In this document: positions 1 to 45,178 of the stretch, one piece after another | Numbering within the stretch: the stretch's first letter is position 1 | Layout of the letters: the number at the start of each line of letters is the position of its first letter | Origin: Methylobacter sp. | GTDB taxonomy: Bacteria; Pseudomonadota; Gammaproteobacteria; Methylococcales; Methylomonadaceae | Direction of reading: 5' to 3' | NCBI GenBank assembly: GCA_028712225.1 | Contig: JAQTQN010000001.1 | Location: forward strand, 1-64,000 | Length of the DNA stretch: 64,000 nt | Notes under the pieces: model-generated | The model's input: the letters and a program-made list of their open reading frames with translations, nothing else | Databases searched by the model: none | Told to the model about the DNA's origin: nothing | Position numbers and translations under genes: made by a program

Positions 1-52
1 CCTTAATCAAAACATTGTTTTACAACCTGGTGATACAGTTACAGTTAGATAA
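1..52 (+). CDS. Polysaccharide export protein, C-terminal end only (copy A)
   Basis: The window opens in the last 16 complete codons of a gene whose C-terminus (LNQNIVLQPGDTVTVR) is identical to that of the complete gene at 26747-27316. By that homology it is the end of a Wza-like exopolysaccharide export protein. The rest lies upstream of base 1, which shows that the duplicated segment extends to the left of the window. Confidence 0.85.
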   Translation, partial: LNQNIVLQPGDTVTVR

Positions 53-83
53 CGTCTGTAGACAACAGTTTTACTAAAAAGCA

Positions 84-1382
84 ATGATCAAACCAAGCCG
101 CTTATTCTCTTTGTGCGCACTCACAATGGCAACTTGCAACAGCATGGCCACTGAGTATTATTTGGAGCCTCGGTTTTCCTCAAACCAACGCTACGATACC
201 AATATCAATATGCGCCAAACTCCACCGCAAGCCAACTGGATCACGACAGTATCGCCAGCGGCAAATTTTGGCTTACGCTATGAAAATGGCGAATTAAATT
301 CGAATTTCACTTGGAACCAGCTGTTCTACACCAATCAATCGGAACTTAATATTGACGAGCAGTTGTTTGGCCTAGATTACAAGCATAAAACTGAACGCTT
401 TGATTGGTCTTTTAAAAATGCGTATAGCAACCGCTCATCGCTCAACACTGAAGATACTGGTAGCGGCATACTTTTTAGCCAGGTTATGAGAAAGCAGCTC
501 ACCCTGGCCCCGTCAGTTTCTTATGCGTTAGATGAATTAAATTCATTAGCATTTGATTATTCTTATGAAAATACTAAATACGAAAAAAATCAGAATGCCC
601 TTTTTCTTTCCGATTATGACTATCACCAATTGTCAGGCACCTTTAATCATATGTATTCGGAACGCGATAAACTTAACGCTACACTTAGCACCTCCAGGTA
701 TAAAACGCCCGTTCAAGATCAAACTACTTACAACACCGTTGCCCAATTAGGCTGGCAACATAGCTTTAGCGAGCAATTAGTCACCTATATATCAGCCGGT
801 TTAAATTATTCGCAGGCAGAGTCTGCTGTCCCCTCATTTTACTTGGATAACAACGGACAAATTAATTTTCTAGACCCTACAACAGGCACTCTTACTCCAC
901 AACCTGTAGGGCCACCTGTGTACTCTATCCCGAATACGGGAAGACTCACCCTAACCCCTCAATACAAAACCTTAGAAAGCAACAATTTTGGCCAAGTATA
1001 TCGGGCATCCATACAAAAATCCTTTGAGAAAGGCTCCGTTTCACTTATAGGCTCACAAAATCAAACCCCCACATCACAGGGTCTTCAAACACGCACTGAA
1101 GTTTCTCTCAACAACGCCTATACCATTAATGAGCGCTGGACATCAGGACTTACGAGCAGCTACTCAACCAGTGAAATAACCGGCCAGCAAAATAGCCGAT
1201 ACAACAGAACTTACTATTCAATTAGCCCTAACATAAACTGGAAATGGACACCTGAAATTAATCTAGGGCTTTCATATACCTATCGACAACAAGAATTCCA
1301 AGGCAGCACACAACCAAGCCAAGGTAATATTGTCCAGTTGCAATTTAATTATCAACCCCAAATCAATCGCCAGGTGAAATAG
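84..1382 (+). CDS. Beta-barrel outer membrane protein of the exopolysaccharide locus (copy A allele)
   Basis: A predicted secreted protein of 432 residues. A hydrophobic N-terminus ends in an Ala-X-Ala-like cleavage site near residue 22 (SMA/TEYY). The rest is rich in alternating polar and aromatic strands and ends in a strand-like tail, as expected of an outer-membrane beta-barrel. Similar proteins accompany Wza/Wzz genes in PEP-CTERM-associated polysaccharide loci, so a role in export or anchoring is inferred from context. The stop is one base before the GTG of the Wzz-like gene. It differs from copy B at about ten residues, all within roughly the first 145 (for example R6 versus H6), and is identical afterwards. 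The exact family name is uncertain. Confidence 0.8.
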   Translation: MIKPSRLFSLCALTMATCNSMATEYYLEPRFSSNQRYDTNINMRQTPPQANWITTVSPAANFGLRYENGELNSNFTWNQLFYTNQSELNIDEQLFGLDYKHKTERFDWSFKNAYSNRSSLNTEDTGSGILFSQVMRKQLTLAPSVSYALDELNSLAFDYSYENTKYEKNQNALFLSDYDYHQLSGTFNHMYSERDKLNATLSTSRYKTPVQDQTTYNTVAQLGWQHSFSEQLVTYISAGLNYSQAESAVPSFYLDNNGQINFLDPTTGTLTPQPVGPPVYSIPNTGRLTLTPQYKTLESNNFGQVYRASIQKSFEKGSVSLIGSQNQTPTSQGLQTRTEVSLNNAYTINERWTSGLTSSYSTSEITGQQNSRYNRTYYSISPNINWKWTPEINLGLSYTYRQQEFQGSTQPSQGNIVQLQFNYQPQINRQVK

Positions 1383-1383
1383 C

Positions 1384-3129
1384 GTGGAAAACCAAACCCT
1401 CGACATTAAAGATTACGTAAACATTCTCAAACGGCGAATTAGATACTTATTAATTCCAGCTGCCGTCATTACATTATTAAGCATAATGCTGGCGGTTTTA
1501 TTGCCACCTGTTTATAAATCTTCCGCCACTATTTTGATTGAAGAGCAGGAAGTTCCTAAAGAACTGGTTAAATCCACAGTCACCACATTTGCCGACCAGC
1601 GAATTCAAATGATCAGCCAACGGATCATGACTCGCACCAATTTGATGGAGATTATCGGTAAATTTGATTTATATGCTGGAGACAGAAAAAGTAAAACCCA
1701 GGAAGTCATACTGGAAAAAATGCGTAAAAGCATCAAAGTTGAAACCATCAGCGCCGATGTAATTGACCCCCGAAATGGCCAACCTACGCAAGCGACGATT
1801 GCTTTTACACTTTCGTTTGAATACGAATCACCAGATATAGCTCAAAAAGTAGCTAATGAACTGACAACGCTATTCTTAAATGAAAATATCAAAAACCGTA
1901 CCCAGTCGGCAGAAAGTACAACACTGTTTCTGAGCGAAGAAGCACGCCGTCTAAAAGATAAAATCCAACAAATCCAAGCTGATCTAGCCGCCTTCAAAGC
2001 AAAGAATCTGGATCAACTGCCGCAAATTAGCCAGCTTAACCAACAAGAACTCACTTCATTATCCAACCAGCTGATTGGCCTGGATAGCCAGGAACGCTCC
2101 CTTCAAGAACGCCGCTTTTATCTGGAAGGACAATTAGCGCAAATCGATCCCAATTCGATGGCAACAGGGTCTGACGGCCTTCGCGTACTGGACATGAAAG
2201 ACCGCCTGAAATTACTGCAATCACAATATCCTTCAATACAGGCAAGTTATTCTGCGACCCATCCTGATGTCATCAAGATGAAGCGAGAAATTGAGTCCCT
2301 GGAAAAGGAAATTGGCACTAATACTGATTTGAATGACCTTAATGCCGAACTTACCCGTAGAAAAACGGACTTGGCAAGTTTAAAAAAACAGTATTCAGAT
2401 AAACATCCCGACGTTTTAAAACTGCAAAAACAAATCGACACACTGCAGCAAACCATGCTGGAAACCAAAAAAAATGACAGCATTAAAAGTGGCATTGAGG
2501 CTGATAATCCAGCCTATATCACTCTGAAATCGCAGTTGGAATCCACCAATGCTGAATTCAAATCACTCCAGTACACACGGGAACAGGTCAACAATAAAAT
2601 CGAATCATTACGTGAAAGCCTGCGTCAGGCGCCATTGGTTGAAAAAGAATACATGGATCTTATTCAAGACCTAGACAATAGCAATCTTCGCTATCGAGAA
2701 GTAAGCGCACGAGAAATGGAAGCGCAAATTTCTCAACAGTTAGAAATGGAAAACAAGGGCGAACGCTTTGCATTAATTGACCCCGCCCTTGAACCAGAAA
2801 AACCAGTCAGCCCTAATCGAGTAGCTATTCTTTTCCTCGGCTTTGTGTTTGCGATTGCCATCGGCGTTGGCTGTATTGCCTTAGTTGAGATGACAGATTC
2901 GGCTATTTACAGTGAAAAAACTCTTATTTCAATCTTAGGTCAAACACCTCTTGCCATCATTCCCTACCTTGAAAGCAAAGATGAATTTGAACTACGTCGA
3001 CGCCAACAAAAAATGTTCTTAATCATCCTTGCCTGCGCATTTGTGTTAGCCATTGTCGGCTTCCATTTCATTGTCATGCCGCTGGATATATTTTGGTACA
3101 AACTAATGCGTTTATTAGGCTTTAACTAA
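1384..3129 (+). CDS. Wzz/GumC-like polysaccharide chain-length determinant (copy A)
   Basis: This 581-residue inner-membrane protein has a Wzz-type N-terminal domain with a transmembrane segment at about residues 21-45, a long periplasmic coiled coil (about 170-430) and a second transmembrane segment near residue 480. A third hydrophobic helix lies near the C-terminus. The coiled coil contains two tandem HPDV-bearing repeats, a feature of GumC/EpsC-like proteins that set exopolysaccharide chain length. The start is GTG, one base after the preceding stop, so the two genes are probably translationally coupled. The cytoplasmic kinase domain found in some Wzc proteins is absent and is supplied separately by the next gene. 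Confidence 0.9.
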   Translation: MENQTLDIKDYVNILKRRIRYLLIPAAVITLLSIMLAVLLPPVYKSSATILIEEQEVPKELVKSTVTTFADQRIQMISQRIMTRTNLMEIIGKFDLYAGDRKSKTQEVILEKMRKSIKVETISADVIDPRNGQPTQATIAFTLSFEYESPDIAQKVANELTTLFLNENIKNRTQSAESTTLFLSEEARRLKDKIQQIQADLAAFKAKNLDQLPQISQLNQQELTSLSNQLIGLDSQERSLQERRFYLEGQLAQIDPNSMATGSDGLRVLDMKDRLKLLQSQYPSIQASYSATHPDVIKMKREIESLEKEIGTNTDLNDLNAELTRRKTDLASLKKQYSDKHPDVLKLQKQIDTLQQTMLETKKNDSIKSGIEADNPAYITLKSQLESTNAEFKSLQYTREQVNNKIESLRESLRQAPLVEKEYMDLIQDLDNSNLRYREVSAREMEAQISQQLEMENKGERFALIDPALEPEKPVSPNRVAILFLGFVFAIAIGVGCIALVEMTDSAIYSEKTLISILGQTPLAIIPYLESKDEFELRRRQQKMFLIILACAFVLAIVGFHFIVMPLDIFWYKLMRLLGFN

Positions 3130-3151
3130 ACTAATACTGGAGTTTTATACG

Positions 3152-3934
3152 ATGGACCAAAATCAAACCGCTATAGAAAAAGATCAAGTCAAGCATGGTC
3201 AAGCCGTGATAGGCCAGATTGCAGACGCTGAAAACTTCACTTATACAGATACTAAGATACAAAAACCGGATCTTGGACAACTCCGTACCAACCGGATCGT
3301 GTCAGCATTAACGCATAATAATTGGCTTGAGTCTTATAAAATGCTGCGCACGCGCACTTTGCACATCATGGACGAAAAAGGCTGGAATACACTCGCAGTC
3401 ACCAGTCCAACTCGAGATAGCGGCAACAGCTTAACGGCAGTAAATTTGGCCATCAGCATGGCCATGGAACTGGACAGGACAGTATTGCTGGTTGATGGCA
3501 ACTTTCAAAATCCTTCCGTACATACATTACTGGGATTAAAAGCTGCAGCGGGACTTGGGGATTACTTACTTAACAGTACGCCGTTAAGTGAGCTAATGAT
3601 CAATCCCGGCATTCCCAGGCTGGTTGTACTTCCGGCAGGAAAACCCCTTATCAACTCGACTGAAATGTTACGCTCCCCTAGAATGATTAATTTTGTCAAT
3701 GAGGTGAAAACTCGCTACCCATCTCGAATCATTATCTTCGATATGCCGCCGTTACTTACCCAAGTAGATACTTTAAGCTTTTCACCTTATGTTGACTGTG
3801 TTTTGCTAGTAGCGGAAGAAGGCAACACCAAAACGGAAGATTTAAAAAATGCAGCCTCTTTATTACAAGATGTTAATCTAGTTGGCACCGTGTACAACAA
3901 ATCTTCTGACAAAAAAATAAAATATACTGGATAA
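3152..3934 (+). CDS. CpsD/CapB-like ParA-fold protein with an altered P-loop (copy A)
   Basis: This 260-residue protein has the order of a bacterial tyrosine kinase or MinD/ParA-like ATPase. It has an ESYKMLRT motif at about residue 60, a P-loop region at about 84-96, a Walker A' region (LLVDGNF, near D115) and a Walker B region (IIIFDMPP). The usual GKT/S of the P-loop reads GNS (residues 91-93), so the ATP-contacting lysine is missing. The C-terminal tyrosine cluster typical of autokinases is also poor (only YNK and KYTG). By position it partners the Wzz-like protein 22 bases upstream. It may be a catalytically impaired regulator; that is inference. Confidence 0.82.
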   Translation: MDQNQTAIEKDQVKHGQAVIGQIADAENFTYTDTKIQKPDLGQLRTNRIVSALTHNNWLESYKMLRTRTLHIMDEKGWNTLAVTSPTRDSGNSLTAVNLAISMAMELDRTVLLVDGNFQNPSVHTLLGLKAAAGLGDYLLNSTPLSELMINPGIPRLVVLPAGKPLINSTEMLRSPRMINFVNEVKTRYPSRIIIFDMPPLLTQVDTLSFSPYVDCVLLVAEEGNTKTEDLKNAASLLQDVNLVGTVYNKSSDKKIKYTG

Positions 3935-3971
3935 AAACACCTGAAGTCTATTGAACACTTGAATTAATCAG

Positions 3972-4001
3972 CAATCATCGACTAACAATCGCCGATGATT
4001 G
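3972..4001 (+). terminator. Hairpin between exopolysaccharide operon and hfq (copy A)
   Basis: A perfect 9-bp inverted repeat (CAATCATCG / CGATGATTG) with a 12-base loop lies between the kinase-like gene and hfq. The T-rich tail is weak (TGTTGCTTT), so it may be an inefficient terminator or an RNA-processing hairpin. Confidence 0.5.
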
Positions 4002-4062
4002 TGTTGCTTTCTAAAAGCAGTTATCTTAATAAACTGTTATAAAAATAATAAGGAGAAATCGG

Positions 4063-4305
4063 ATGTCAAAAGGCCAAAATTTACAGGACAACTTTCTAAA
4101 TGCACTTAGAAAAGAACATACCCCTGTGTCAATTTTTCTCGTTAACGGTATAAAGTTGCAAGGTAAAGTAGATTCGTTTGATCAATATGTCATTATGTTA
4201 AAAAACACTGTTAGTCAGATGGTCTACAAACATGCCATTTCAACTATCGTCCCCGGCAAGGCTGTTAGAATGACTCAAGATGTTGAGCCAACTAGTGACG
4301 AGTAA
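4063..4305 (+). CDS. hfq: RNA chaperone Hfq (copy A)
   Basis: The 80-residue protein carries the Sm1 motif around [16 protein letters not shown] and the Sm2 motif around YKHAIST, with the N-terminal [16 protein letters not shown] that lines the RNA-binding ring. It forms a hexamer that pairs small RNAs with mRNAs. AAGGAG lies just upstream of the ATG. The C-terminal tail is short (about ten residues after the Sm core), unlike the long tail of E. coli Hfq. hflX, hflK and hflC follow, which is the usual order. Confidence 0.97.
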
Positions 4306-4360
4306 TTTAAGAAGATCACTACCATCGCACGTATTTATTTTAATTTAATGGTGAACCTAG

Positions 4361-5626
4361 TTGTTTGACCGTCCAGATTCAGGTGAACGTGCCATACTCG
4401 TTCACCTGACATTTTATTGCGGGCAAGAAGACCTTCTCGAATTACAAGAATTAGCCAAATCAGCCGGCACTATTCCTGTACACGTCCTTACCGGAAGTCG
4501 TAAAAGTCCAGATCCCAAATTTTTTGTCGGCACAGGCAAACTTGAAGAGCTTAAATTAGCTATTGAAGCTTATTCAGCAGACATTGTCTTATTCAATCAC
4601 CCTCTATCCCCTAGCCAGGAAAGAAACCTTGAAAATGCTTTGGGGATTCGTGTAGTGGATAGAAACGGTTTAATTCTTGATATTTTTGCCCAACGAGCGC
4701 AAACATTTGAGGGAAAGCTTCAGGTTGAACTGGCTCAGTTAAAGCACCTTTCAACACGCCTGGTTCGAGGCTGGACGCATTTGGAGAGACAAAAAGGTGG
4801 AATTGGCCTACGTGGCCCTGGTGAAACCCAACTTGAAACAGATAGGCGACTACTCGGGCTACGTATTAAACAAATTCAGCAACGCCTAGATAAAGTCGAT
4901 AAGCAACGGCATCAAGGCCGTAGCAAAAGAAAGAAAGCCGAAATTCCATCGGTTTCCTTGGTCGGCTATACCAATGCAGGCAAATCTACATTATTTAACG
5001 CTTTAACTGGCGCTGATATTTATGTCGCAGATCAATTATTTGCGACATTAGACCCGACGCTTAGGCACTGCCAATTACCTAATAATAGCGAAGTCATTCT
5101 TGCCGACACCGTCGGTTTCATACGCCATCTACCTCATGAATTAGTAGCCGCATTCAAATCCACCTTGCAGGAAGCCAGTGAAGCAGATTTACTACTACAC
5201 GTTATCGATGCAAATGCAGAGGATCGCGATGAAACGATTAATCAAGTCAATAAAGTCCTCACAGACATTAACGCCCACGAAATCAGACAACTGGAAGTAT
5301 TTAATAAAATTGATTTACTGCCAAATATGTCGCCTAGAGTAGATCGCGACGCCTCTGGTTACCCAATCCGCATCTGGCTTTCTGCTGTAACAGGTGAAGG
5401 CATCGGGTTACTGCTAGAAGTTCTGACAGAAATATTTTCATCCAGTAAAGTAAAAAAACGCTGTTTTTTACGTCCTGATCAAGGCGACATTAGGGCTAAA
5501 TTATTCACTTGCGCAAAAATAATTGACGAGCATATTGATGATCTGGGTGCCAGTGAGTTGGTTATTGAAGTAGATACGAAACACCTAGGTTTATTGAAAT
5601 CGGTACATACCGAAGAAGTCTTTTAG
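4361..5626 (+). CDS. hflX: Ribosome-associated GTPase HflX (copy A)
   Basis: The 421-residue protein has the HflX N-terminal domain, the glycine-rich GGIGLRGPGETQLETDRR segment and a GTPase domain with G1 (GYTNAGKST), G3 (DTVGF) and G4 (NKID). HflX splits or rescues stalled 70S ribosomes. The start is TTG at 4361, giving MFDRPDSGERAILVHL, which matches the conserved family N-terminus. The only nearby upstream ATG (4348) is out of frame and stops at once. It sits 55 bases after hfq, probably in the same transcript. Confidence 0.96.
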   Translation: MFDRPDSGERAILVHLTFYCGQEDLLELQELAKSAGTIPVHVLTGSRKSPDPKFFVGTGKLEELKLAIEAYSADIVLFNHPLSPSQERNLENALGIRVVDRNGLILDIFAQRAQTFEGKLQVELAQLKHLSTRLVRGWTHLERQKGGIGLRGPGETQLETDRRLLGLRIKQIQQRLDKVDKQRHQGRSKRKKAEIPSVSLVGYTNAGKSTLFNALTGADIYVADQLFATLDPTLRHCQLPNNSEVILADTVGFIRHLPHELVAAFKSTLQEASEADLLLHVIDANAEDRDETINQVNKVLTDINAHEIRQLEVFNKIDLLPNMSPRVDRDASGYPIRIWLSAVTGEGIGLLLEVLTEIFSSSKVKKRCFLRPDQGDIRAKLFTCAKIIDEHIDDLGASELVIEVDTKHLGLLKSVHTEEVF

Positions 5627-5792
5627 CCTTGGTTTGTATTAGCTTGGTTTTTTTAGGATAATCCCTGACCAATACGAATATCGGATTATTTTGAATAATC
5701 ATAAGCTTGGCTGCGACTAATGAGAAACCACCGAGTAAATACAATCAAATTAAGATTAATAATTATAATGTTAAGTAACGTGGAGCAAAGGT

Positions 5793-7016
5793 ATGTCCTG
5801 GAATGAGCCTGATGGCGACAAAAAAGACCCTTGGAGTGGTGGTGACCAGAAAGGGCCACCTGATTTGGATGACGCCATTCGTTCATTACAAGAAAAATTG
5901 GGCAGTTTTTTTGGCGGAAGCAACAATCGTAATGAAGATTCTTCCGGCAATCCCATATCCCCAAGAACACTTGGTTTTATAGGTGTCGGCGCTGTTTTAC
6001 TATGGGGGGCAAGTGGCTTTTATATCGTTGACGAAGGTAATCACGGGGTTGAAACCAGATTTGGCAAGTATATTAATACAACCCAATCCGGATTAAATTG
6101 GCATTTACCTGCCCCTATTGAAAGCGTTGATATAGTTAACGTTAAACAACAGCGTTTTATTGAAGTCGGCTATCGTTCTGGCGGCACTGCACAATCCGCA
6201 GGTTCAGTACCTAAAGAAGCACTGATGTTGACCAAAGATGAAAATATTGTCGATGTTCGCCTAGCCGTGCAATATCAGGTTAAAGATGCTAAGCAATTCA
6301 TTTTCAATGTAGCAAATCCTACTGGGACATTAAAGCAAGTTACCGAAAGCACACAACGAGGTGTAATAGGAAGCAGTACGATGGATTTTGTGTTGACTGA
6401 AGGTCGTAGCGAGGTAGTAACCCAGATCAAAAAGGAAATTCAGGATATTATGGATAGCTACAAAACCGGCATTCAGATTACCAGTGTTAACCTTCAAGAC
6501 GCGCAGCCTCCCGAACAAGTTCAAAATGCATTTGAAGATGCAATAAAAGCAAGGGAAGACGAACAACGCTTAATCAATGAAGCAGAAGCCTACTCGAATG
6601 ACGTTGTACCTAAAGCCCGTGGTGCCGCGGCAAGAAAAATCCAAGAAGCCGAAGGTTACAAAGAACAAATAATTGCTCAAGCAGAAGGGGAAAGCAACCG
6701 TTTCTCCAAACTGTTAGCAGAATACGAAAAAGCCCCGGATGTCACCAGAAAACGGCTTTATCTTGAAACCATGGAGTCCGTGCTATCTCAAACCAGCACA
6801 GTACTAGTGGATGTTAAAGGCAGCAATAATATGCTTTACCTGCCCCTAGATAAAATGATGCAACAAAAGCAGTCAGTGCCGCCCGTAACTACTCCGCAAA
6901 ATAACGCAGAACAAGTTGCCCAACCACTGAGTGATATACAGACACAAGTACCGCCGCAACCACAAACTGTTTTGCGCAATTCACAACGTGGCCGTGACGC
7001 AAGGGGACGCCAATGA
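5793..7016 (+). CDS. hflK: FtsH protease modulator HflK (copy A)
   Basis: A membrane-anchored SPFH/prohibitin-domain protein of 407 residues. A Gly/Asp-rich N-terminus precedes one transmembrane helix (about residues 60-80) and the band-7 domain, followed by a coiled segment and a Gln/Pro-rich tail. With HflC it forms the HflKC cage around FtsH in the inner membrane. The stop overlaps the start of hflC by four bases (ATGA), implying translational coupling and equal dosage. Confidence 0.96.
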   Translation: MSWNEPDGDKKDPWSGGDQKGPPDLDDAIRSLQEKLGSFFGGSNNRNEDSSGNPISPRTLGFIGVGAVLLWGASGFYIVDEGNHGVETRFGKYINTTQSGLNWHLPAPIESVDIVNVKQQRFIEVGYRSGGTAQSAGSVPKEALMLTKDENIVDVRLAVQYQVKDAKQFIFNVANPTGTLKQVTESTQRGVIGSSTMDFVLTEGRSEVVTQIKKEIQDIMDSYKTGIQITSVNLQDAQPPEQVQNAFEDAIKAREDEQRLINEAEAYSNDVVPKARGAAARKIQEAEGYKEQIIAQAEGESNRFSKLLAEYEKAPDVTRKRLYLETMESVLSQTSTVLVDVKGSNNMLYLPLDKMMQQKQSVPPVTTPQNNAEQVAQPLSDIQTQVPPQPQTVLRNSQRGRDARGRQ

Positions 7017-7876
7017 CACAAAATAAACTACTGGTGAGCGTTGCTGCACTGTTACTGGTTGGCTCAATGTCCTTTTTTACTGTTAATGAAACAGAAAAAG
7101 CCATCAAATTCGCTTTAGGTGCCATTGTTAAATCAGACTACACACCTGGTATATATTTCAAAGTTCCGTTTTATAATAACGTCAAAAAATTTGATGCCAG
7201 AATTCAAACCATGGATTCAAAGCCCGAACGTTTTTTGACCGCAGAAAAAAAGAACGTAATTGTTGATTCATTCGTAAAGTGGCGTATTGGTGATGTAAAA
7301 ACTTTTTACACGGTGGTCGCTGGTGATATAGATCAAGCTAACTTGCGTCTGGATCAAATTATTAAAGATGCATTTCGGGGTGAATTTAGCAAACGCAACA
7401 TCAAACAGCTTGTTTCAACCGATCGGCAAATAATACGTGAAATCCTGATCAAAAACTCCAAGACACTAGCAGCAGATTTAGGCATGGAAATTATTGATGT
7501 TCAGGTAATGCGCATTGATTTACCGGAAGAAGTCAGCAGTTCTGTCTTTCGAAGAATGGAAGCAGAACGTGAGAGAGTTGCTCGCGAGTTTCGCTCTCAA
7601 GGTGCAGAGGCCGCTGAAAGAATACGAGCCGATGCAGACCGGCAGCGAGTTGTAACACTTGCTAATTCGTTTCGCGATGCCGAAAAACTTCGCGGCGAAG
7701 GAGATGCAAAGTCGGCTGAAATTTACGCAAAAGCCTACGGAGCCAATAGCGAGTTTTTTACCTTCTACCGTAGTTTGAATGCTTACAAGAAAACGTTTAC
7801 CGGATCAGATATGATGGTATTAGATCCTGAGTCTGATTTCTTTAAATACTTCAAAAACCAACAGATAGTTAAGTAA
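7013..7876 (+). CDS. hflC: FtsH protease modulator HflC (copy A)
   Basis: A 287-residue SPFH-domain protein with an N-terminal membrane anchor (about residues 5-22) and the family sequences around EKAIKFALG and RMEAERERVAREFRSQG. It partners HflK, whose gene it overlaps by four bases. A strong hairpin-T terminator follows 22 bases after the stop, so this is probably the end of the hfq-hflXKC transcript. Confidence 0.96.
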   Translation: MTQNKLLVSVAALLLVGSMSFFTVNETEKAIKFALGAIVKSDYTPGIYFKVPFYNNVKKFDARIQTMDSKPERFLTAEKKNVIVDSFVKWRIGDVKTFYTVVAGDIDQANLRLDQIIKDAFRGEFSKRNIKQLVSTDRQIIREILIKNSKTLAADLGMEIIDVQVMRIDLPEEVSSSVFRRMEAERERVAREFRSQGAEAAERIRADADRQRVVTLANSFRDAEKLRGEGDAKSAEIYAKAYGANSEFFTFYRSLNAYKKTFTGSDMMVLDPESDFFKYFKNQQIVK

Positions 7877-7898
7877 CATTTACTAACGTGTTAAACCC

Positions 7899-7928
7899 CA
7901 AAACGCTCCGCTCACGCGGGGCGTTTTG
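7899..7928 (+). terminator. Rho-independent terminator after hflC (copy A)
   Basis: CAAAACGC(T)CCGC pairs with GCGG(G)GCGTTTTG around a TCAC loop, followed by TTTG. This 13-bp GC-rich stem separates hflC from hisZ. Confidence 0.85.
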
Positions 7929-7948
7929 TTTGAGTGGACATATAAAAT

Positions 7949-9163
7949 ATGCAACAAAAAGACTCCTGGCTTTTGCCTGATGGTATTGAAGAACTGCTGC
8001 CGGAAGATGCCAAACACCTGGAAAGCTTACGTCGTAAAATATTAGATACCTTCGTTTGCTGGGGCTACGAACTGGTTATTCCGCCATTTATCGATTATCT
8101 GGATTCATTATTAACGGGCTCCGGTCATGATCTTGAACTGCAAACTTTTAAGCTGACCGACCAAATTAGTGGAGAAATGTTAGGAATAAGAGCAGACATG
8201 ACCCCTCAAGTAGCTCGAATAGATGCACACAACCTAAAGCATGCTTGGCCAACACGACTGTGTTATGTCGGAACAATTTTGCATACCCGTGGCGACCCAC
8301 TGGAAAAGACAAGAAGCCCAATGCAAATAGGCGCTGAACTTTATGGACACTCCGGCAAAGAAAGCGACCTCGAAGTCATCCGTTTACTCTTAGAAATGCT
8401 AGCAATGACGGGGTTACAAAATGTACATCTCGACTTGGGGCACGTGGGTATATACCGTGCTCTATCAAGACAGGCAGAACTATCCGATACCCAAGAAGCC
8501 TCATTGTTTGATGTGTTGCAACGTAAAGCCAGACCTGAGTTGCAAGAACTCCTAGACGGCTTCAACCTTGAGAGCAATATTAAAAATATGCTCTTAAAAT
8601 TACCCGAGCTCAACGGTGATAAAGAGATCTTGGATAAGGCTCTCGACTTATTCGCAACAGCGAATCAACATGTCAAACAAGCATTAGCGGAACTGAAGGC
8701 TATTGCAGATAGCTTAACCACGGTGTTTCCACACTTAGCCGTTAGTTTCGATTTGTCAGAACTCAGGGGTTATCATTATCATACTGGAGTAGTTTTCGCG
8801 GCATTTGTGCCGTCCATTGGTCGTGAAATTGCTCGAGGCGGACGCTATGATAATATTGGCGCAGTATTTGGTCGATCACGTCCTGCAACCGGTTTTAGCG
8901 CCGACTTAAAATTGTTGGCGACATTAAGCAAAACAACGTTAAGTGTAAAACAAGCAACCTTAATTTTTGCCCCTGCACTAAACGACCCTCAATTGACTGA
9001 AGCTATCAGAGCGTTACGTGCCCGCGGCCAAGCCGTTGTTCAACAGTTACCAGGTCAAATCGGCGGCGCCCAAGAGTTGGGATGCTCCGCCATTTTAGAG
9101 CAAGATAATCAACACTGGGTCGTTAAGCCCCTAATCACAGTAACTGCTCCATGTGCTGCATAA
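7949..9163 (+). CDS. hisZ: ATP phosphoribosyltransferase regulatory subunit HisZ (copy A)
   Basis: The 404-residue protein resembles histidyl-tRNA synthetase (motif-2-like GIRADMTPQVARIDA, and ARGGRYDNIG) but lacks the anticodon-binding domain, the pattern of HisZ. HisZ is the non-catalytic partner of short-form HisG and makes the first step of histidine synthesis feedback-sensitive. It lies directly upstream of purA, a common pairing in beta- and gammaproteobacteria. The short HisG it needs is not in the window. Confidence 0.93.
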   Translation: MQQKDSWLLPDGIEELLPEDAKHLESLRRKILDTFVCWGYELVIPPFIDYLDSLLTGSGHDLELQTFKLTDQISGEMLGIRADMTPQVARIDAHNLKHAWPTRLCYVGTILHTRGDPLEKTRSPMQIGAELYGHSGKESDLEVIRLLLEMLAMTGLQNVHLDLGHVGIYRALSRQAELSDTQEASLFDVLQRKARPELQELLDGFNLESNIKNMLLKLPELNGDKEILDKALDLFATANQHVKQALAELKAIADSLTTVFPHLAVSFDLSELRGYHYHTGVVFAAFVPSIGREIARGGRYDNIGAVFGRSRPATGFSADLKLLATLSKTTLSVKQATLIFAPALNDPQLTEAIRALRARGQAVVQQLPGQIGGAQELGCSAILEQDNQHWVVKPLITVTAPCAA

Positions 9164-9240
9164 GCACAGTGCTTAGTGTGTTGTATCCTGCATCCACACA
9201 GCCGTCGGCAATTGCTCCGTGCGTTGCCCTACATTCGTAA

Positions 9241-10554
<1,314 letters not shown>

Positions 10555-10608
10555 AAGCGGCATCGGACACACCCCAACAGACCATTATTACCCTAAGGCA
10601 GAATTGAC

Positions 10609-10896
10609 ATGGCAGAAACAGTAGAAGAATTAACGGTAACCTACGAAGATGGCGGTATTGAAACCGTTAAGGAACTTGATAAAAAGGTGCTGACCAAAGG
10701 CGCTTGGGCGACGGTAATGTATCGTTACCAGGATTGGGATAGAGCCAAAGAACAATATGGCCCCGATAAATACACTATTCGCCGCTATCAAAAGCGCAAT
10801 GGTGAGTATCAACAAAAATCAAAATTTAATATTTCCAGCAAGGACCAAGCGAAAAGCATTATCGCTGCGCTGGAAGACTGGACTAAAGAAGACTAA
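10609..10896 (+). CDS. Small conserved protein of unknown function (copy A)
   Basis: A 95-residue, highly charged protein with no signal peptide or membrane segment. The C-terminal half (YTIRRYQKRNGEYQQKSKFN..., then a helix ending in ALEDWTKED) loosely suggests a small nucleic-acid-binding fold of the PC4/YdbC kind, but that is only a resemblance. It follows purA by 54 bases on the same strand and may be cotranscribed. No function is assigned. Confidence 0.7.
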   Translation: MAETVEELTVTYEDGGIETVKELDKKVLTKGAWATVMYRYQDWDRAKEQYGPDKYTIRRYQKRNGEYQQKSKFNISSKDQAKSIIAALEDWTKED

Positions 10897-10917
10897 AACC
10901 ACTCAAGAATGGCTGCG

Positions 10918-11792: not shown

Positions 11793-11828
11793 TTATGCGA
11801 GTCCGACGGTATTGGGTATTTGAAGAGC

Positions 11829-13847
<2,019 letters not shown>

Positions 13848-31198: not shown

Positions 31199-31235
31199 AA
31201 ACACCTGAAGTCTATTGAACACTTGAATTAATCAG

Positions 31236-32890: not shown

Positions 32891-33056
32891 CCTTGGTTTG
32901 TATTAGCTTGGTTTTTTTAGGATAATCCCTGACCAATACGAATATCGGATTATTTTGAATAATCATAAGCTTGGCTGCGACTAATGAGAAACCACCGAGT
33001 AAATACAATCAAATTAAGATTAATAATTATAATGTTAAGTAACGTGGAGCAAAGGT

Positions 33057-34280
33057 ATGTCCTGGAATGAGCCTGATGGCGACAAAAAAGACCCTTGGAG
33101 TGGTGGTGACCAGAAAGGGCCACCTGATTTGGATGACGCCATTCGTTCATTACAAGAAAAATTGGGCAGTTTTTTTGGCGGAAGCAACAATCGTAATGAA
33201 GATTCTTCCGGCAATCCCATATCCCCAAGAACACTTGGTTTTATAGGTGTCGGCGCTGTTTTACTATGGGGGGCAAGTGGCTTTTATATCGTTGACGAAG
33301 GTAATCACGGGGTTGAAACCAGATTTGGCAAGTATATTAATACAACCCAATCCGGATTAAATTGGCATTTACCTGCCCCTATTGAAAGCGTTGATATAGT
33401 TAACGTTAAACAACAGCGTTTTATTGAAGTCGGCTATCGTTCTGGCGGCACTGCACAATCCGCAGGTTCAGTACCTAAAGAAGCACTGATGTTGACCAAA
33501 GATGAAAATATTGTCGATGTTCGCCTAGCCGTGCAATATCAGGTTAAAGATGCTAAGCAATTCATTTTCAATGTAGCAAATCCTACTGGGACATTAAAGC
33601 AAGTTACCGAAAGCACACAACGAGGTGTAATAGGAAGCAGTACGATGGATTTTGTGTTGACTGAAGGTCGTAGCGAGGTAGTAACCCAGATCAAAAAGGA
33701 AATTCAGGATATTATGGATAGCTACAAAACCGGCATTCAGATTACCAGTGTTAACCTTCAAGACGCGCAGCCTCCCGAACAAGTTCAAAATGCATTTGAA
33801 GATGCAATAAAAGCAAGGGAAGACGAACAACGCTTAATCAATGAAGCAGAAGCCTACTCGAATGACGTTGTACCTAAAGCCCGTGGTGCCGCGGCAAGAA
33901 AAATCCAAGAAGCCGAAGGTTACAAAGAACAAATAATTGCTCAAGCAGAAGGGGAAAGCAACCGTTTCTCCAAACTGTTAGCAGAATACGAAAAAGCCCC
34001 GGATGTCACCAGAAAACGGCTTTATCTTGAAACCATGGAGTCCGTGCTATCTCAAACCAGCACAGTACTAGTGGATGTTAAAGGCAGCAATAATATGCTT
34101 TACCTGCCCCTAGATAAAATGATGCAACAAAAGCAGTCAGTGCCGCCCGTAACTACTCCGCAAAATAACGCAGAACAAGTTGCCCAACCACTGAGTGATA
34201 TACAGACACAAGTACCGCCGCAACCACAAACTGTTTTGCGCAATTCACAACGTGGCCGTGACGCAAGGGGACGCCAATGA
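33057..34280 (+). CDS. hflK: FtsH protease modulator HflK (copy B)
   Basis: Identical to 5793-7016: one membrane helix, SPFH domain, Gln/Pro-rich tail, four-base overlap with hflC. Confidence 0.96.
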   Translation: MSWNEPDGDKKDPWSGGDQKGPPDLDDAIRSLQEKLGSFFGGSNNRNEDSSGNPISPRTLGFIGVGAVLLWGASGFYIVDEGNHGVETRFGKYINTTQSGLNWHLPAPIESVDIVNVKQQRFIEVGYRSGGTAQSAGSVPKEALMLTKDENIVDVRLAVQYQVKDAKQFIFNVANPTGTLKQVTESTQRGVIGSSTMDFVLTEGRSEVVTQIKKEIQDIMDSYKTGIQITSVNLQDAQPPEQVQNAFEDAIKAREDEQRLINEAEAYSNDVVPKARGAAARKIQEAEGYKEQIIAQAEGESNRFSKLLAEYEKAPDVTRKRLYLETMESVLSQTSTVLVDVKGSNNMLYLPLDKMMQQKQSVPPVTTPQNNAEQVAQPLSDIQTQVPPQPQTVLRNSQRGRDARGRQ

Positions 34281-35140
34281 CACAAAATAAACTACTGGTG
34301 AGCGTTGCTGCACTGTTACTGGTTGGCTCAATGTCCTTTTTTACTGTTAATGAAACAGAAAAAGCCATCAAATTCGCTTTAGGTGCCATTGTTAAATCAG
34401 ACTACACACCTGGTATATATTTCAAAGTTCCGTTTTATAATAACGTCAAAAAATTTGATGCCAGAATTCAAACCATGGATTCAAAGCCCGAACGTTTTTT
34501 GACCGCAGAAAAAAAGAACGTAATTGTTGATTCATTCGTAAAGTGGCGTATTGGTGATGTAAAAACTTTTTACACGGTGGTCGCTGGTGATATAGATCAA
34601 GCTAACTTGCGTCTGGATCAAATTATTAAAGATGCATTTCGGGGTGAATTTAGCAAACGCAACATCAAACAGCTTGTTTCAACCGATCGGCAAATAATAC
34701 GTGAAATCCTGATCAAAAACTCCAAGACACTAGCAGCAGATTTAGGCATGGAAATTATTGATGTTCAGGTAATGCGCATTGATTTACCGGAAGAAGTCAG
34801 CAGTTCTGTCTTTCGAAGAATGGAAGCAGAACGTGAGAGAGTTGCTCGCGAGTTTCGCTCTCAAGGTGCAGAGGCCGCTGAAAGAATACGAGCCGATGCA
34901 GACCGGCAGCGAGTTGTAACACTTGCTAATTCGTTTCGCGATGCCGAAAAACTTCGCGGCGAAGGAGATGCAAAGTCGGCTGAAATTTACGCAAAAGCCT
35001 ACGGAGCCAATAGCGAGTTTTTTACCTTCTACCGTAGTTTGAATGCTTACAAGAAAACGTTTACCGGATCAGATATGATGGTATTAGATCCTGAGTCTGA
35101 TTTCTTTAAATACTTCAAAAACCAACAGATAGTTAAGTAA
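34277..35140 (+). CDS. hflC: FtsH protease modulator HflC (copy B)
   Basis: Identical to 7013-7876: N-terminal anchor and SPFH domain, followed by the same terminator. Confidence 0.96.
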   Translation: MTQNKLLVSVAALLLVGSMSFFTVNETEKAIKFALGAIVKSDYTPGIYFKVPFYNNVKKFDARIQTMDSKPERFLTAEKKNVIVDSFVKWRIGDVKTFYTVVAGDIDQANLRLDQIIKDAFRGEFSKRNIKQLVSTDRQIIREILIKNSKTLAADLGMEIIDVQVMRIDLPEEVSSSVFRRMEAERERVAREFRSQGAEAAERIRADADRQRVVTLANSFRDAEKLRGEGDAKSAEIYAKAYGANSEFFTFYRSLNAYKKTFTGSDMMVLDPESDFFKYFKNQQIVK

Positions 35141-35162
35141 CATTTACTAACGTGTTAAACCC

Positions 35163-35192
35163 CAAAACGCTCCGCTCACGCGGGGCGTTTTG
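35163..35192 (+). terminator. Rho-independent terminator after hflC (copy B)
   Basis: The same 13-bp GC-rich hairpin with a T-tail as at 7899-7928. Confidence 0.85.
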
Positions 35193-35212
35193 TTTGAGTG
35201 GACATATAAAAT

Positions 35213-36427
35213 ATGCAACAAAAAGACTCCTGGCTTTTGCCTGATGGTATTGAAGAACTGCTGCCGGAAGATGCCAAACACCTGGAAAGCTTACGTCGTA
35301 AAATATTAGATACCTTCGTTTGCTGGGGCTACGAACTGGTTATTCCGCCATTTATCGATTATCTGGATTCATTATTAACGGGCTCCGGTCATGATCTTGA
35401 ACTGCAAACTTTTAAGCTGACCGACCAAATTAGTGGAGAAATGTTAGGAATAAGAGCAGACATGACCCCTCAAGTAGCTCGAATAGATGCACACAACCTA
35501 AAGCATGCTTGGCCAACACGACTGTGTTATGTCGGAACAATTTTGCATACCCGTGGCGACCCACTGGAAAAGACAAGAAGCCCAATGCAAATAGGCGCTG
35601 AACTTTATGGACACTCCGGCAAAGAAAGCGACCTCGAAGTCATCCGTTTACTCTTAGAAATGCTAGCAATGACGGGGTTACAAAATGTACATCTCGACTT
35701 GGGGCACGTGGGTATATACCGTGCTCTATCAAGACAGGCAGAACTATCCGATACCCAAGAAGCCTCATTGTTTGATGTGTTGCAACGTAAAGCCAGACCT
35801 GAGTTGCAAGAACTCCTAGACGGCTTCAACCTTGAGAGCAATATTAAAAATATGCTCTTAAAATTACCCGAGCTCAACGGTGATAAAGAGATCTTGGATA
35901 AGGCTCTCGACTTATTCGCAACAGCGAATCAACATGTCAAACAAGCATTAGCGGAACTGAAGGCTATTGCAGATAGCTTAACCACGGTGTTTCCACACTT
36001 AGCCGTTAGTTTCGATTTGTCAGAACTCAGGGGTTATCATTATCATACTGGAGTAGTTTTCGCGGCATTTGTGCCGTCCATTGGTCGTGAAATTGCTCGA
36101 GGCGGACGCTATGATAATATTGGCGCAGTATTTGGTCGATCACGTCCTGCAACCGGTTTTAGCGCCGACTTAAAATTGTTGGCGACATTAAGCAAAACAA
36201 CGTTAAGTGTAAAACAAGCAACCTTAATTTTTGCCCCTGCACTAAACGACCCTCAATTGACTGAAGCTATCAGAGCGTTACGTGCCCGCGGCCAAGCCGT
36301 TGTTCAACAGTTACCAGGTCAAATCGGCGGCGCCCAAGAGTTGGGATGCTCCGCCATTTTAGAGCAAGATAATCAACACTGGGTCGTTAAGCCCCTAATC
36401 ACAGTAACTGCTCCATGTGCTGCATAA
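35213..36427 (+). CDS. hisZ: ATP phosphoribosyltransferase regulatory subunit HisZ (copy B)
   Basis: Identical to 7949-9163: a histidyl-tRNA-synthetase-like protein without anticodon domain, paired with purA. Confidence 0.93.
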   Translation: MQQKDSWLLPDGIEELLPEDAKHLESLRRKILDTFVCWGYELVIPPFIDYLDSLLTGSGHDLELQTFKLTDQISGEMLGIRADMTPQVARIDAHNLKHAWPTRLCYVGTILHTRGDPLEKTRSPMQIGAELYGHSGKESDLEVIRLLLEMLAMTGLQNVHLDLGHVGIYRALSRQAELSDTQEASLFDVLQRKARPELQELLDGFNLESNIKNMLLKLPELNGDKEILDKALDLFATANQHVKQALAELKAIADSLTTVFPHLAVSFDLSELRGYHYHTGVVFAAFVPSIGREIARGGRYDNIGAVFGRSRPATGFSADLKLLATLSKTTLSVKQATLIFAPALNDPQLTEAIRALRARGQAVVQQLPGQIGGAQELGCSAILEQDNQHWVVKPLITVTAPCAA

Positions 36428-36504
36428 GCACAGTGCTTAGTGTGTTGTATCCTGCATCCACACAGCCGTCGGCAATTGCTCCGTGCGTTGCCCTACATTC
36501 GTAA

Positions 36505-37818
<1,314 letters not shown>

Positions 37819-37872
37819 AAGCGGCATCGGACACACCCCAACAGACCATTATTACCCTAAGGCAGAATTGAC

Positions 37873-38160
37873 ATGGCAGAAACAGTAGAAGAATTAACGG
37901 TAACCTACGAAGATGGCGGTATTGAAACCGTTAAGGAACTTGATAAAAAGGTGCTGACCAAAGGCGCTTGGGCGACGGTAATGTATCGTTACCAGGATTG
38001 GGATAGAGCCAAAGAACAATATGGCCCCGATAAATACACTATTCGCCGCTATCAAAAGCGCAATGGTGAGTATCAACAAAAATCAAAATTTAATATTTCC
38101 AGCAAGGACCAAGCGAAAAGCATTATCGCTGCGCTGGAAGACTGGACTAAAGAAGACTAA
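37873..38160 (+). CDS. Small conserved protein of unknown function (copy B)
   Basis: Identical to the 95-residue charged protein at 10609-10896, again 54 bases after purA. Confidence 0.7.
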   Translation: MAETVEELTVTYEDGGIETVKELDKKVLTKGAWATVMYRYQDWDRAKEQYGPDKYTIRRYQKRNGEYQQKSKFNISSKDQAKSIIAALEDWTKED

Positions 38161-38181
38161 AACCACTCAAGAATGGCTGCG

Positions 38182-38616
38182 TTACTCCAGCCATTCTATG
38201 ATGTGATCCTCCAAATCATCGACCTCAGACTCTTTCATCGCATAACTCCTGATTGAAACACCTGCTTCATGCACACTATCAGGATTCCCCGACACCAACG
38301 GATGCCATGAAGGTAAATCTTTATCATCAGTCAGCAATCGGTAGGCACAGGTAGTCGGCAACCAATTGAATTCAGAAAAATCATGCTGCTTTAAGTCTAA
38401 ACATTCAGGAACCAGCCTAGTCCGCTCGGTATAGCGCGTGCATCGGCAAGTATCAAGATCGATAAGATCACAAACAACACTGGTGAAACAAATATCACCA
38501 GAGTCTTCATCTTCCAGCTTGTGCAAACAGCATTTACCGCAACCATCGCATAATGACTCCCATTCCTCGGTAGTCATTTCGGACAATTTTTTCTCTTTCC
38601 AAAAACTCATACTCAT
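38182..38616 (-). CDS. YcgN/YkgJ-type cysteine-cluster protein (copy B)
   Basis: Identical to 10918-11352: cysteine cluster CDGCGKCC, overlapping the universal stress gene by four bases. Confidence 0.88.
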   Translation of the reverse strand: MSMSFWKEKKLSEMTTEEWESLCDGCGKCCLHKLEDEDSGDICFTSVVCDLIDLDTCRCTRYTERTRLVPECLDLKQHDFSEFNWLPTTCAYRLLTDDKDLPSWHPLVSGNPDSVHEAGVSIRSYAMKESEVDDLEDHIIEWLE

Positions 38617-39056
38617 TCGTCCTGCAAGCGTACAGCCAGCACATCACAGCGGGCATGATGCAATACGGCATTGGCGGTTGAGCCCAGCACCAGTGCCAAG
38701 CCATGTCGCCCATGTGAGCCGACAACAATAAGATTTGCCTTGATTTTCTCCGCCACCTGGACAATCTCCTGCTTGGGAACACCCCAAATCAACCACCGAT
38801 TAGCCAGAGCAACACCAAGTCGATCAGCAATCTCGTTAAACTTGGCTTTTTCTGTTTCCAGCAACTCATTATCTGAATCTTCAGTTAGTGAAATCACAGT
38901 GCCGTAACTAGTGTCTGGCATGGGGATATTATCCAGTACATGCACAATACTTAGCTCGGCTTGACATGTTTTCGCCAAACCATAGGCCTTACTGGCAACA
39001 TCGTTGCCATGCTCAGTAAAGTCTACTGTCAGTAATATGTGTTGGTATAAGCTCAT
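38613..39056 (-). CDS. Universal stress protein, UspA family (copy B)
   Basis: Identical to 11349-11792, with the GSHGRHGLALVLGS nucleotide-binding motif. Confidence 0.92.
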   Translation of the reverse strand: MSLYQHILLTVDFTEHGNDVASKAYGLAKTCQAELSIVHVLDNIPMPDTSYGTVISLTEDSDNELLETEKAKFNEIADRLGVALANRWLIWGVPKQEIVQVAEKIKANLIVVGSHGRHGLALVLGSTANAVLHHARCDVLAVRLQDE

Positions 39057-39092
39057 TTATGCGAGTCCGACGGTATTGGGTATTTGAAGAGC

Positions 39093-41111
<2,019 letters not shown>

Positions 41112-41425
41112 TTTACGGATGTGGGCGTTAAGTTAAAGGATAATCCAGCTGAATGCAAGTTTGCCCGGGAACAAGCCGAACAAAATATCTTCAAAAAAAC
41201 AGTTGGAATAATCGTCAAAAATTATCCAAACAAATGCAAATTAAAACTGAATATTGTGGCAAAAGCTCTACTGGATAAACGCTTAATTTTTCGGGCGTTT
41301 GTCAGAGAAATTCAAAAATAGATACGCCTAAAGAAAACACCACACCTGCGAAGCCTCCAGAAAAATGATTTTTTACATCAGCAATGTTAGAATCAATGCA
41401 ATTTCTGACTAGCCTGACTTAACGG
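41112..41425. other. Intergenic region between thiC leader and minC (copy B)
   Basis: The same 314-base promoter-bearing gap as in copy A; no further feature seen. Confidence 0.5.
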
Positions 41426-42163
41426 ATGCCGACAGATTCTCAACACTCAAATTACCACCCCCCGGCTCTAGAATTCAAAAGCACTACTTTCTCAGTGCCC
41501 GTTTTGGTATTAGCTAACAATGATGTAATAATCATTGAACACCAATTACAGGAAAAAATTCAGCTGGCACCAGAGTTTTTTAAAAACTCTCCAGTGATAA
41601 TCGACCTACAGGAACTAAATAAGCAAGATTTAAACATTGATATAAGCGAGCTCGTTAATATGCTGCGGAGCTTAGCTTTCTTACCTATAGGTATACGTGG
41701 CGCAACAACTCAGCAACTGAAAAAGGCCTTAGAGCTTGCCATTCCTGCACATACTGGACCAAACCAAGCATCAGCAATTGATAGCGTAAAACCTCAAGCC
41801 TTACAGGCTACACCAGCAACTGAACCCGCTCCAATCTTAGAAAGCGCTACGCTAATTACCCAGCCAATTCGATCTGGTCAGCGCATTTATGCTCATGGCG
41901 ACTTAATTATTCTGGCTCAAGTTAGTGCAGGTGCTGAAATTCTTGCTGAAGGCAACATACACGTATACGGCTCATTAAGAGGCAGGGCCTTAGCAGGTGT
42001 TCAAGGCAACATCGAAGCACGAATTTTTTGCTCGGACTTACAGGCAGAACTCATCTCTATTGCCGGAACTTACAAAATCAGTGAAGATCTTACTGAAATC
42101 GTCCGCAACCGGCCTGTTCAGATATGCCTGCAAAACAACACATTAACCATTAAAAATCTTTAA
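41426..42163 (+). CDS. minC: Septum site-determining protein MinC (copy B)
   Basis: Identical to 14162-14899: FtsZ-inhibiting N-domain, linker and C-terminal beta-helix. Confidence 0.96.
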   Translation: MPTDSQHSNYHPPALEFKSTTFSVPVLVLANNDVIIIEHQLQEKIQLAPEFFKNSPVIIDLQELNKQDLNIDISELVNMLRSLAFLPIGIRGATTQQLKKALELAIPAHTGPNQASAIDSVKPQALQATPATEPAPILESATLITQPIRSGQRIYAHGDLIILAQVSAGAEILAEGNIHVYGSLRGRALAGVQGNIEARIFCSDLQAELISIAGTYKISEDLTEIVRNRPVQICLQNNTLTIKNL

Positions 42164-42189
42164 ATACCCCATTACCACGGAGAAACCAA

Positions 42190-42999
42190 GTGGCGCGAAT
42201 TATAGTTGTAACATCAGGCAAAGGCGGCGTTGGCAAAACCACCACAAGCGCAGCCATCGCCATGGGCCTTGCTAAAAGAGGGCATAAAACAGCCGTGATA
42301 GATTTCGATGTAGGCTTGCGAAATCTCGATTTAATCATGGGATGTGAACGCCGTGTTGTTTATGACTTTGTAAACGTCATCAATGGAGAAGCTACGCTCA
42401 ACCAAGCATTGATTCGCGATAAAAACTGCAATCAACTATACATCCTGCCTGCATCACAAACCCGAGACAAAGACGCACTCTCCCAAGAAGGCGTCGGTAG
42501 AATTCTGGATGAGCTAAAAAAAGACTTTAAATATATCGTATGCGACTCTCCAGCCGGCATTGAAAGAGGCGCATTTTTGGCAATGTATTATGCTGATGAT
42601 GCGTTTATCGTGACCAATCCCGAAGTATCCTCTGTTAGAGATTCAGATCGAATGCTAGGCATTCTTTCCAGCAAGTCACGCCGAGCAGAAGAAAACGAAG
42701 AACCTATTAAAGAGTACTTATTACTGACTCGCTACTCTCCAGATAGAGTAAAATTAGGCGAAATGTTAAGTGTCGATGACGTACAAGAAATATTGTCATT
42801 ACACTTACTAGGCGTCATTCCAGAATCAAAATCGGTTTTGAACGCTTCAAATTCGGGCACCCCAGTTATTCTCGATGAAAAAAGTGATGCGGGACAAGCT
42901 TACGCTGATGTAATTGCACGCTATCTGGGCGAAGACCGACCCCACCGTTTTATTGATGAAAAAAAGGGCCTCTTCGGAAAACTTTTCGGGGGTAAGTAA
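42190..42999 (+). CDS. minD: Septum site-determining ATPase MinD (copy B)
   Basis: Identical to 14926-15735: GTG start, deviant Walker A KGGVGKT, C-terminal membrane helix. Confidence 0.98.
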   Translation: MARIIVVTSGKGGVGKTTTSAAIAMGLAKRGHKTAVIDFDVGLRNLDLIMGCERRVVYDFVNVINGEATLNQALIRDKNCNQLYILPASQTRDKDALSQEGVGRILDELKKDFKYIVCDSPAGIERGAFLAMYYADDAFIVTNPEVSSVRDSDRMLGILSSKSRRAEENEEPIKEYLLLTRYSPDRVKLGEMLSVDDVQEILSLHLLGVIPESKSVLNASNSGTPVILDEKSDAGQAYADVIARYLGEDRPHRFIDEKKGLFGKLFGGK

Positions 43000-43259
43000 T
43001 GAGTTTACTTGATTATTTTAGGACGTCGAAAACAAGCTCAGCATCGCTTGCCAAAGAAAGGCTGCAAATCCTAGTTGCCCATGAGCGCACATCACGAAAT
43101 CAGCCCTCATACTTGCCGCAATTACAAAAAGAGTTACTGGAAGTTATCCGTAAATATGTCAGTATTGACCAAGACGCCATATCGGTAAACTTTGAACAAG
43201 ACGATAACCAAGAGACACTTGAGCTAAATATTGTCTTACCCGATACCAACAAAAAATAG
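42999..43259 (+). CDS. minE: Cell division topological specificity factor MinE (copy B)
   Basis: Identical to 15735-15995 and overlapping minD. Because the whole operon is doubled, the MinD:MinE ratio would be kept even if dosage rises. Confidence 0.97.
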   Translation: MSLLDYFRTSKTSSASLAKERLQILVAHERTSRNQPSYLPQLQKELLEVIRKYVSIDQDAISVNFEQDDNQETLELNIVLPDTNKK

Positions 43260-43298
43260 TAACAATTTTTCTTTCATTTAAATTAAAGGTCTTCAATT

Positions 43299-43496
43299 AT
43301 GACTAATACAATTGGCACAGCTGCTGGCAAAATATGGCATTACTTAGAAAAGAATGGCCCTTCTAGCGTGACTAAAATAACTAATGAGACAGGCTTAGGA
43401 AAAAACGATGTCCAACGAGCAATCGGCTGGCTAAGTAAAGAGAATAAACTGGTTATAGAGACCACCGGGAGAACAGAAACCTTATCACTGAAATAA
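43299..43496 (+). CDS. Small winged-helix protein (DUF2582-like, copy B)
   Basis: Identical to 16035-16232: single winged-helix protein of 65 residues after minE. Confidence 0.8.
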   Translation: MTNTIGTAAGKIWHYLEKNGPSSVTKITNETGLGKNDVQRAIGWLSKENKLVIETTGRTETLSLK

Positions 43497-43525
43497 TGCA
43501 TTTTCATCCAATCGCTAAATCAGAT

Positions 43526-44449
43526 GATTCTTTAGGCAGCAGCAAGCACTTGGGAAGCGCTGAACAAATCCCAAGTCAGCCACAGAGCGCCATTAGGCAT
43601 GCTAATTTTTTCAAAAAGTCGACGAATGGCAACAGCAAGTTGACCTGCTGATGCATTTTCCTTCAATCCCCAATAGCGGGTCTTGTGAAAAACAAACTGT
43701 TGTTTGATTACGCTAAAAACGTTCTCCACCCGCGCTCGCACCGAGGAATGTTTGCGGTTGCGCTTTTTCTGGCTGGACGAGGGTTTTTACCGAGTTTACG
43801 CTTGTCATTGACGCACCAGCGCAGGACGTCACGCCGATATTCATCGCGGGCGTAACCGGCAACGATAACGCAATCAATCTTGCGCAACAGCTTAGACAAT
43901 TGCGACATTCGCCGCTGCGATGGTCACCGTGAGTGCCGCGCCAAAATTGACATCCGCGCCGATATGGATTTTTATCCCAAAATACCATTGCAGACCTTTT
44001 CGGGTTTGGCGCATGCATGAATCACGCGCTTTTTCTTTGTTTTTGGTGGAACTGGGCGCATACATGGCATCGCCCATTATGCCTTGAGACACCAAAACCT
44101 TGGTCTTTCAAGTGACGGTTCACGGTACTCAACAGGGCCTCTGTCAGCTTATGTTTTTCGAGCAAGTGGCGAAAATTCGAAAATAGTCGTTTCGTCTGGC
44201 AAGGCGCCGGTCACGCTGGCAAAGCAGCGGATGCTATCAATCTCATACAACGCATCTTCCACTTGTGCCCGGTGGGTATCTGCCGATCGGAGCAACTGAA
44301 CCAGTGTTGCATGAAGTGGATGCGCGGCATGCTAGCTAAGGGCATCGGTTAACGACCACGTCGGCCGGTTTACGGATAGCATGTCGGATCCGTGCCAACA
44401 ATAGTGACCAGGGAACCACTTGCTCTACCTCTGGAAATAATTTCCGACA
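43526..44449 (-). mobile_element. Degenerate IS5-family transposase gene (copy B)
   Basis: The same frameshifted IS5-subgroup remnant as at 16262-17185. The identical lesions show that decay preceded the duplication. Confidence 0.85.
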
Positions 44450-44453
44450 GGAT

Positions 44454-45178
44454 GGTTAAGATAAAAGCACCGAGGCAAATGACAGCATCCCCATGTAATT
44501 TATAGCCTTTTTCTCATAACGCGTAGCAATTCTGCGGTAGTGTTTGAGCTTGCCAAACAGGCATTCGATGGCATGTCGCTCTTTATAGTGGTGATAGTCA
44601 CACACAATCTGTTCTTTTCGGTTCGATTTTGGCGGAATAACTGCTTTTATGCCTTGCTCTTTCAACCACTCGCGCAAGGCATTGGTGTCATAGCCTTTGT
44701 CTGCCAAAACGGCCGTGGCCTTAACGTTTTCCAGTATAGGTATCGCTAAACAACACCCCGCCTCTTGACCGCCGCTTAATATGAATTTAATGGGTAGACC
44801 CAAGCCATCACAAAGTGCGTGAATGTTACAGCTAAACCCGCCTTTGGACCGCCCAAGCGCTTCATTGTCAGCGCTACTGTATGCCGCGCAGGCATGCGCT
44901 CTAATCACTGAGCCATCAATAGAAACATCCTGTAAATCAGCTGGTTCCGTAAAATGAACCAGAAGCTTCTCCCAAGCACCACTGCGCCCCCGAACGTAAT
45001 ATTCACAAAGCGGCACTAATAAACCGTCTACAGGTGTCGGGTAAGCCGACTTGAATTCCCGGCAATTTCTTTATCTTCGGCCATAGTCGGTCCCACTCGT
45101 CATCGCTTAACTCTATTCTGTTCATGCCTGCCAAAATGGCAAATTCTACCTCATCGGCAAAACGTCAACAGAACCTAG
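44454..45178 (-). mobile_element. Second IS5-family element, internally deleted (copy B)
   Basis: Matches 17190-17914 with the same internal stop and deletion. One base near the outer end differs (C at 45146, T at 17882). The element ends in CCTAG at 45178, after which the flanks of the two copies are unrelated. Confidence 0.85.

Follow-up and report, generated by a model that had tools for sequence, protein, structure and literature searches.

Organization of the locus

The window analysed here is a stretch of 64,000 nucleotides that forms the first part of an 88,306-bp contig (C245:1-64000) in a Methylococcaceae MAG. It contains a long direct repeat, designated R, together with the segments U1 and U2. 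R encodes a chain length determinant and a tyrosine kinase as well as hfq, hflX, hflK, hflC, hisZ, purA, thiC and minCDE, and these last genes, which a preliminary description of this DNA had listed as duplicated, all lie inside the repeat. In addition to the genes listed below, U1 carries tRNA-Cys, tRNA-Gly, a phosphohexomutase-like gene, genes for GDP-fucose synthase and a PEP-CTERM-type protein, and gmd. U2 holds two Mpt_N-domain dehydrogenase genes, a response regulator gene, rpoA, rpsD, secY, rpsE, tuf and others. The features are as follows, with the strand given where one applies.

1-99: contig start, identical to 27265-27363
100-824: divergent allele, start of a gene for a TIGR03016-like PEP-CTERM-associated outer membrane protein (58/725 differences)
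825-17881: R, first occurrence, exact copy of 28089-45145 (17,057 bp)
4063-4305: hfq
17190-17914, minus strand: IS5-family element, first copy (transposase 17192-17752; T at 17882)
17914-17915: foreign join between the IS and the terminus of an integrative element, lacking in relatives
17915-27264: U1
18071-18319: Ogr/Delta-like (zinc finger) gene in U1
18528-19766: tyrosine integrase gene in U1
26747-27316: exopolysaccharide export gene at the end of U1
27265-45145: R, second occurrence, beginning with the major allele; this is the native locus and is collinear with G003 C15
44454-45178, minus strand: IS5-family element, second copy, between R and U2 at the native locus (C at 45146)
45179-64000: U2, native right flank of R

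Extent and boundaries of the repeat

Comparison of the window with itself bore out the offset of 27264 given in the preliminary description. Bases 1-99 were identical to their counterparts, 58 of the 725 sites in 100-824 were mismatched (8.0%), and 825-17881 then matched exactly over the full 17,057 bp. A single mismatch followed at 17882 (T in the first copy, C at 45146), after which the copies agreed again up to 17914 and 45178 and were unrelated beyond. The earlier statement that 1-17914 matches 27265-45178 is therefore exact for 825-17881, and 59 mismatches, namely the 58 in 100-824 and the one at 17882, fall within the remainder. Similarly, the statement that all open reading frames translate identically was not quite right, because the two proteins of the first ORF differ at 10 residues. 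An exact match of 17 kb is far beyond chance, which leaves a choice between biology and assembly.

The right boundary (17914/45178) had been placed correctly, and it coincides with the exact terminus of the IS5-family element, whose right end, TCAACAGAACC, lies at 17901-17911. The element is preceded by an apparent decayed IS remnant. Because the first base of the window is also the first base of the contig, the left boundary of the repeat is merely a contig end. Its counterpart at 27265 sits 52 bases short of the end of the export gene, a position that makes no obvious biological sense as a boundary. The idea that two old copies had been homogenised was rejected, since the identity is total over 17 kb and yet stops at the contig end and at the IS. 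A plasmid or phage repeat was likewise rejected: the gene content is chromosomal and collinear with that of a relative.

A single copy in relatives and a foreign join at the IS

The relative G003, a 99%-complete genome of the same genus, carries the locus on one contig of 103.9 kb (C15). Homologues of 19855-24912, 24987-26345, 26492-43500, 45285-48346 and 49830-63362 were found there in order and once each, with 82-88% identity across these stretches of U1, R and U2. This single-copy collinearity indicates that U1-R-U2 is the ancestral order, and that the second copy with both of its flanks is the native locus. At this native locus, an IS lies between minCDE and the Mpt_N-domain dehydrogenase genes.

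By the same comparison, the only foreign join is that of the first copy's IS to 17915. Position 17915 is the end of an integrative element, represented by the Ogr/Delta-like gene and the integrase gene, beside tRNA-Cys. This element was not present at the corresponding tRNA-Cys in G003 or G001. A related end to 17915-19855 was observed in another G003 contig (C34; 88% over 570 bp), and the body of that G003 element, which has a similar ogr/int module, was absent among the examined contigs of this MAG. No contig with the expected left neighbour of 17915 (element body-IS) was found in this incomplete genome with contigs <3 kb masked, and the 24 bases that follow the IS on its right side were not matched exactly in viral contigs.

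An IS copy at the novel junction, with IS5-family elements ending at both 17914 and 45178, raises the alternative that a 27,264-bp unit (U1+R, 17915-45178) is truly duplicated in tandem, the contig beginning inside the first unit. Such a duplication could arise if two direct IS5-family copies recombined unequally, or if one IS transposed replicatively. The direct repetition of the unit and the IS exactly at its junction are consistent with this alternative, and such events are well documented (PMC9946442; PMC13423834). However, its left boundary is a contig end rather than an IS. On the outer left side the contig starts inside the unit; the sole other IS copy found (97% identical over 533 bp) is at an unrelated locus, where contig C70 terminates within the IS. 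One copy of the polysaccharide gene must also have taken in foreign DNA later at 100-824, an extra recombination at the very start of the contig that left the next 17 kb unchanged. Relatives have one copy of the locus, which further argues against a duplication. We consider this alternative improbable.

Contig ends carry the mark of a K=127 assembly

The assembly consists of 326 contigs with a total of 3.10 Mb (completeness estimated at 84%, contamination at 2.5%), and some of the contigs are scaffolds with 100-N gaps. When 188 ends of contigs or scaffold pieces were compared, overlaps of exactly 127 bp were found at seven junctions (six end pairs and one self-overlap within a scaffold), and none was longer. 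Such overlaps are the signature of de Bruijn assembly at K=127, and this K together with the fragmentation points to a short-read origin. Across 0.81 Mb of the assembly, exact repeats >127 bp were limited to two tuf copies (467 bp) and the 17,057 bp repeat; read pairs can bridge the former but not the latter. Two identical copies of 17 kb cannot be demonstrated with short reads, and a tandem duplication of this kind is beyond the resolving power of a K=127 short-read assembly.

The first mismatch with the second copy comes exactly 99 bases after the contig start. We had at first expected K=99 for the assembly from this prefix, a value rejected on the evidence of the contig ends. Because those ends show K=127, the prefix is read as an edge from a K=99 step that was probably carried to K=127, or else as a coincidence. 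The series 21, 33, 55, 77, 99, 127 is a canonical choice of k, and it is reported that this series can produce illusory contiguity where the larger k lacks coverage support (PMC8172020).

A model with one copy of R accounts for the window

Of the 128-mers that start in the first copy (17,914 positions), 984 did not occur in the rest of the window, and all of these start within 1-824 or 17755-17914. Independent evidence for a second copy is therefore limited to the divergent allele and the IS join. A single-copy model, consisting of R once, an IS copy beside 17915 and a 951 bp minor-strain fragment, contained every 128-mer of the window. In this model, the IS copy beside 17915 has ~160 bp in common with the IS after minCDE. 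All 128-mers are explained in this way, and nothing in the contig supports a tandem duplication beyond what an assembly artefact itself predicts.

A second strain would explain the divergent allele. Third codon positions of the first ORF account for 42 of the 58 differences in 100-824, and the named relatives that encode a protein of this kind are Methylococcaceae and Methylobacter MAGs. The divergent allele differs from the second copy by 8.0%, a value similar to the 6.6% between the second copy and G003 and the 6.5% between the second copy and G001. At the differing sites, the relatives agree sometimes with one copy and sometimes with the other, a pattern in keeping with recombination of this gene within a mixed population. 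The stretch 100-824 would then be a branch from a minor strain. When the two alleles and two relatives were compared along the whole TIGR03016-like gene (84-1382 and 27348-28646), similarity was patchy, with differences of 1.5% to 20% in neighbouring stretches. This sequence pattern suggests that recombination is frequent at the exopolysaccharide locus.

A mixture of strains could also have acted in a different way, if the join of R and the IS to 17915 were real in a rearranged minor strain, for example after two IS copies close to the tRNA-Cys element had given rise to a deletion or inversion. The contig would then string two strains together, each with a single copy of R. The divergent allele at the start of the first copy is consistent with this possibility, as is the break in synteny between this MAG and G003 left of tRNA-Cys: the G003 tRNA-Cys flank maps to contig C43, but C43 runs on into other genes. 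However, in the second part of the contig U1 and R are joined as in relatives, which would require both strains to share R with zero differences over 17 kb, and no direct sign of a rearranged strain was seen. We therefore regard this possibility as highly improbable.

An assembly loop as the best explanation

The apparent 17.9-kb duplication is best explained as a single stretch that a short-read metagenome assembler wrote out twice by looping through a repeated transposable element, a reading to which we assign a probability of about 0.92. Based on general knowledge of how such programs work, the contig would be a walk through a de Bruijn graph in which a single R edge (825-17881) was traversed twice. 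The walk would start in a minor-strain tip (1-824) that leads into R. R would terminate inside a repeated IS, from which the branch with T at 17882 leads to the end of the tRNA-Cys element and U1. From U1, the walk would re-enter R by way of the major allele and, on this second pass, exit by the IS branch with C, which leads into U2. In the real chromosome, the order is most likely (element body)-IS-int-tRNA-U1-R-IS-U2, with R present once and an IS to the left of 17915.

The preliminary description had put forward the duplication of single-copy genes as its main observation. This is unsupported, given a K=127 short-read MAG and a 99%-complete relative in which the genes are single-copy, and the duplication is most likely not a real feature. 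The same description had named an assembly product as one of three readings. That reading is favoured by the contig-end start with its divergent allele, the IS end, the value of K and the arrangement in G003.

Misassembly and illusory contiguity are known from k-mer based metagenome assemblies (PMC8172020; PMC7111523; PMC8021871). The present case resembles them in its non-unique contig end, its strain variants, its join at a mobile element and a repeat longer than read pairs. It differs in that the exact repeat (17 kb) is unusually long, since a single contig contains an entire single-copy stretch two times. In Burkholderia thailandensis E264, an IS-mediated tandem duplication spans a 208.6-kb region (PMC9946442), with a directly repeated unit and an IS at the junction as in our window. 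There, however, PCR demonstrated the junction and pulsed-field gels confirmed that the units lie in tandem, whereas here the left boundary is a contig end. Similarly, non-canonical IS amplifications (PMC13423834) share with this locus a repeated unit at whose junction a single IS connects two loci that lie far apart, but they are backed by read depth, junction reads and long reads.

There is a slim chance that this methanotroph carries an IS-bounded 27.3-kb tandem duplication in which one polysaccharide gene copy was diversified by recombination. If true, the duplication would double minCDE, hfq, purA, thiC and the start of the exopolysaccharide operon, and a methanotroph with twice the dosage of minCDE and hfq would then merit a test. 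One MAG contig is insufficient for calling core genes duplicated. A check that needs no reads is to obtain K from exact overlaps of contig ends, and then to ask if every (K+1)-mer is already present in a single copy.

Additional observations

On contig C43, synteny with the G003 tRNA-Cys flank ends at 18983, followed at 19207 by 12 consecutive C. Contig C70 likewise has 12 consecutive C within its terminal IS, 7 bases from the contig end. C43:18983-19218 and the C70 end are possible further joining errors of the assembly. In the scaffold L113 (C56), two pieces overlap and 127 bp are repeated at a spacing of 273; this looks like a further small loop made in this assembly. In U2, the two Mpt_N-domain (methylene-tetrahydromethanopterin dehydrogenase-like) genes at 45795-47652 are neighbours in direct orientation with proteins that are 50% identical, and they are an old tandem pair.
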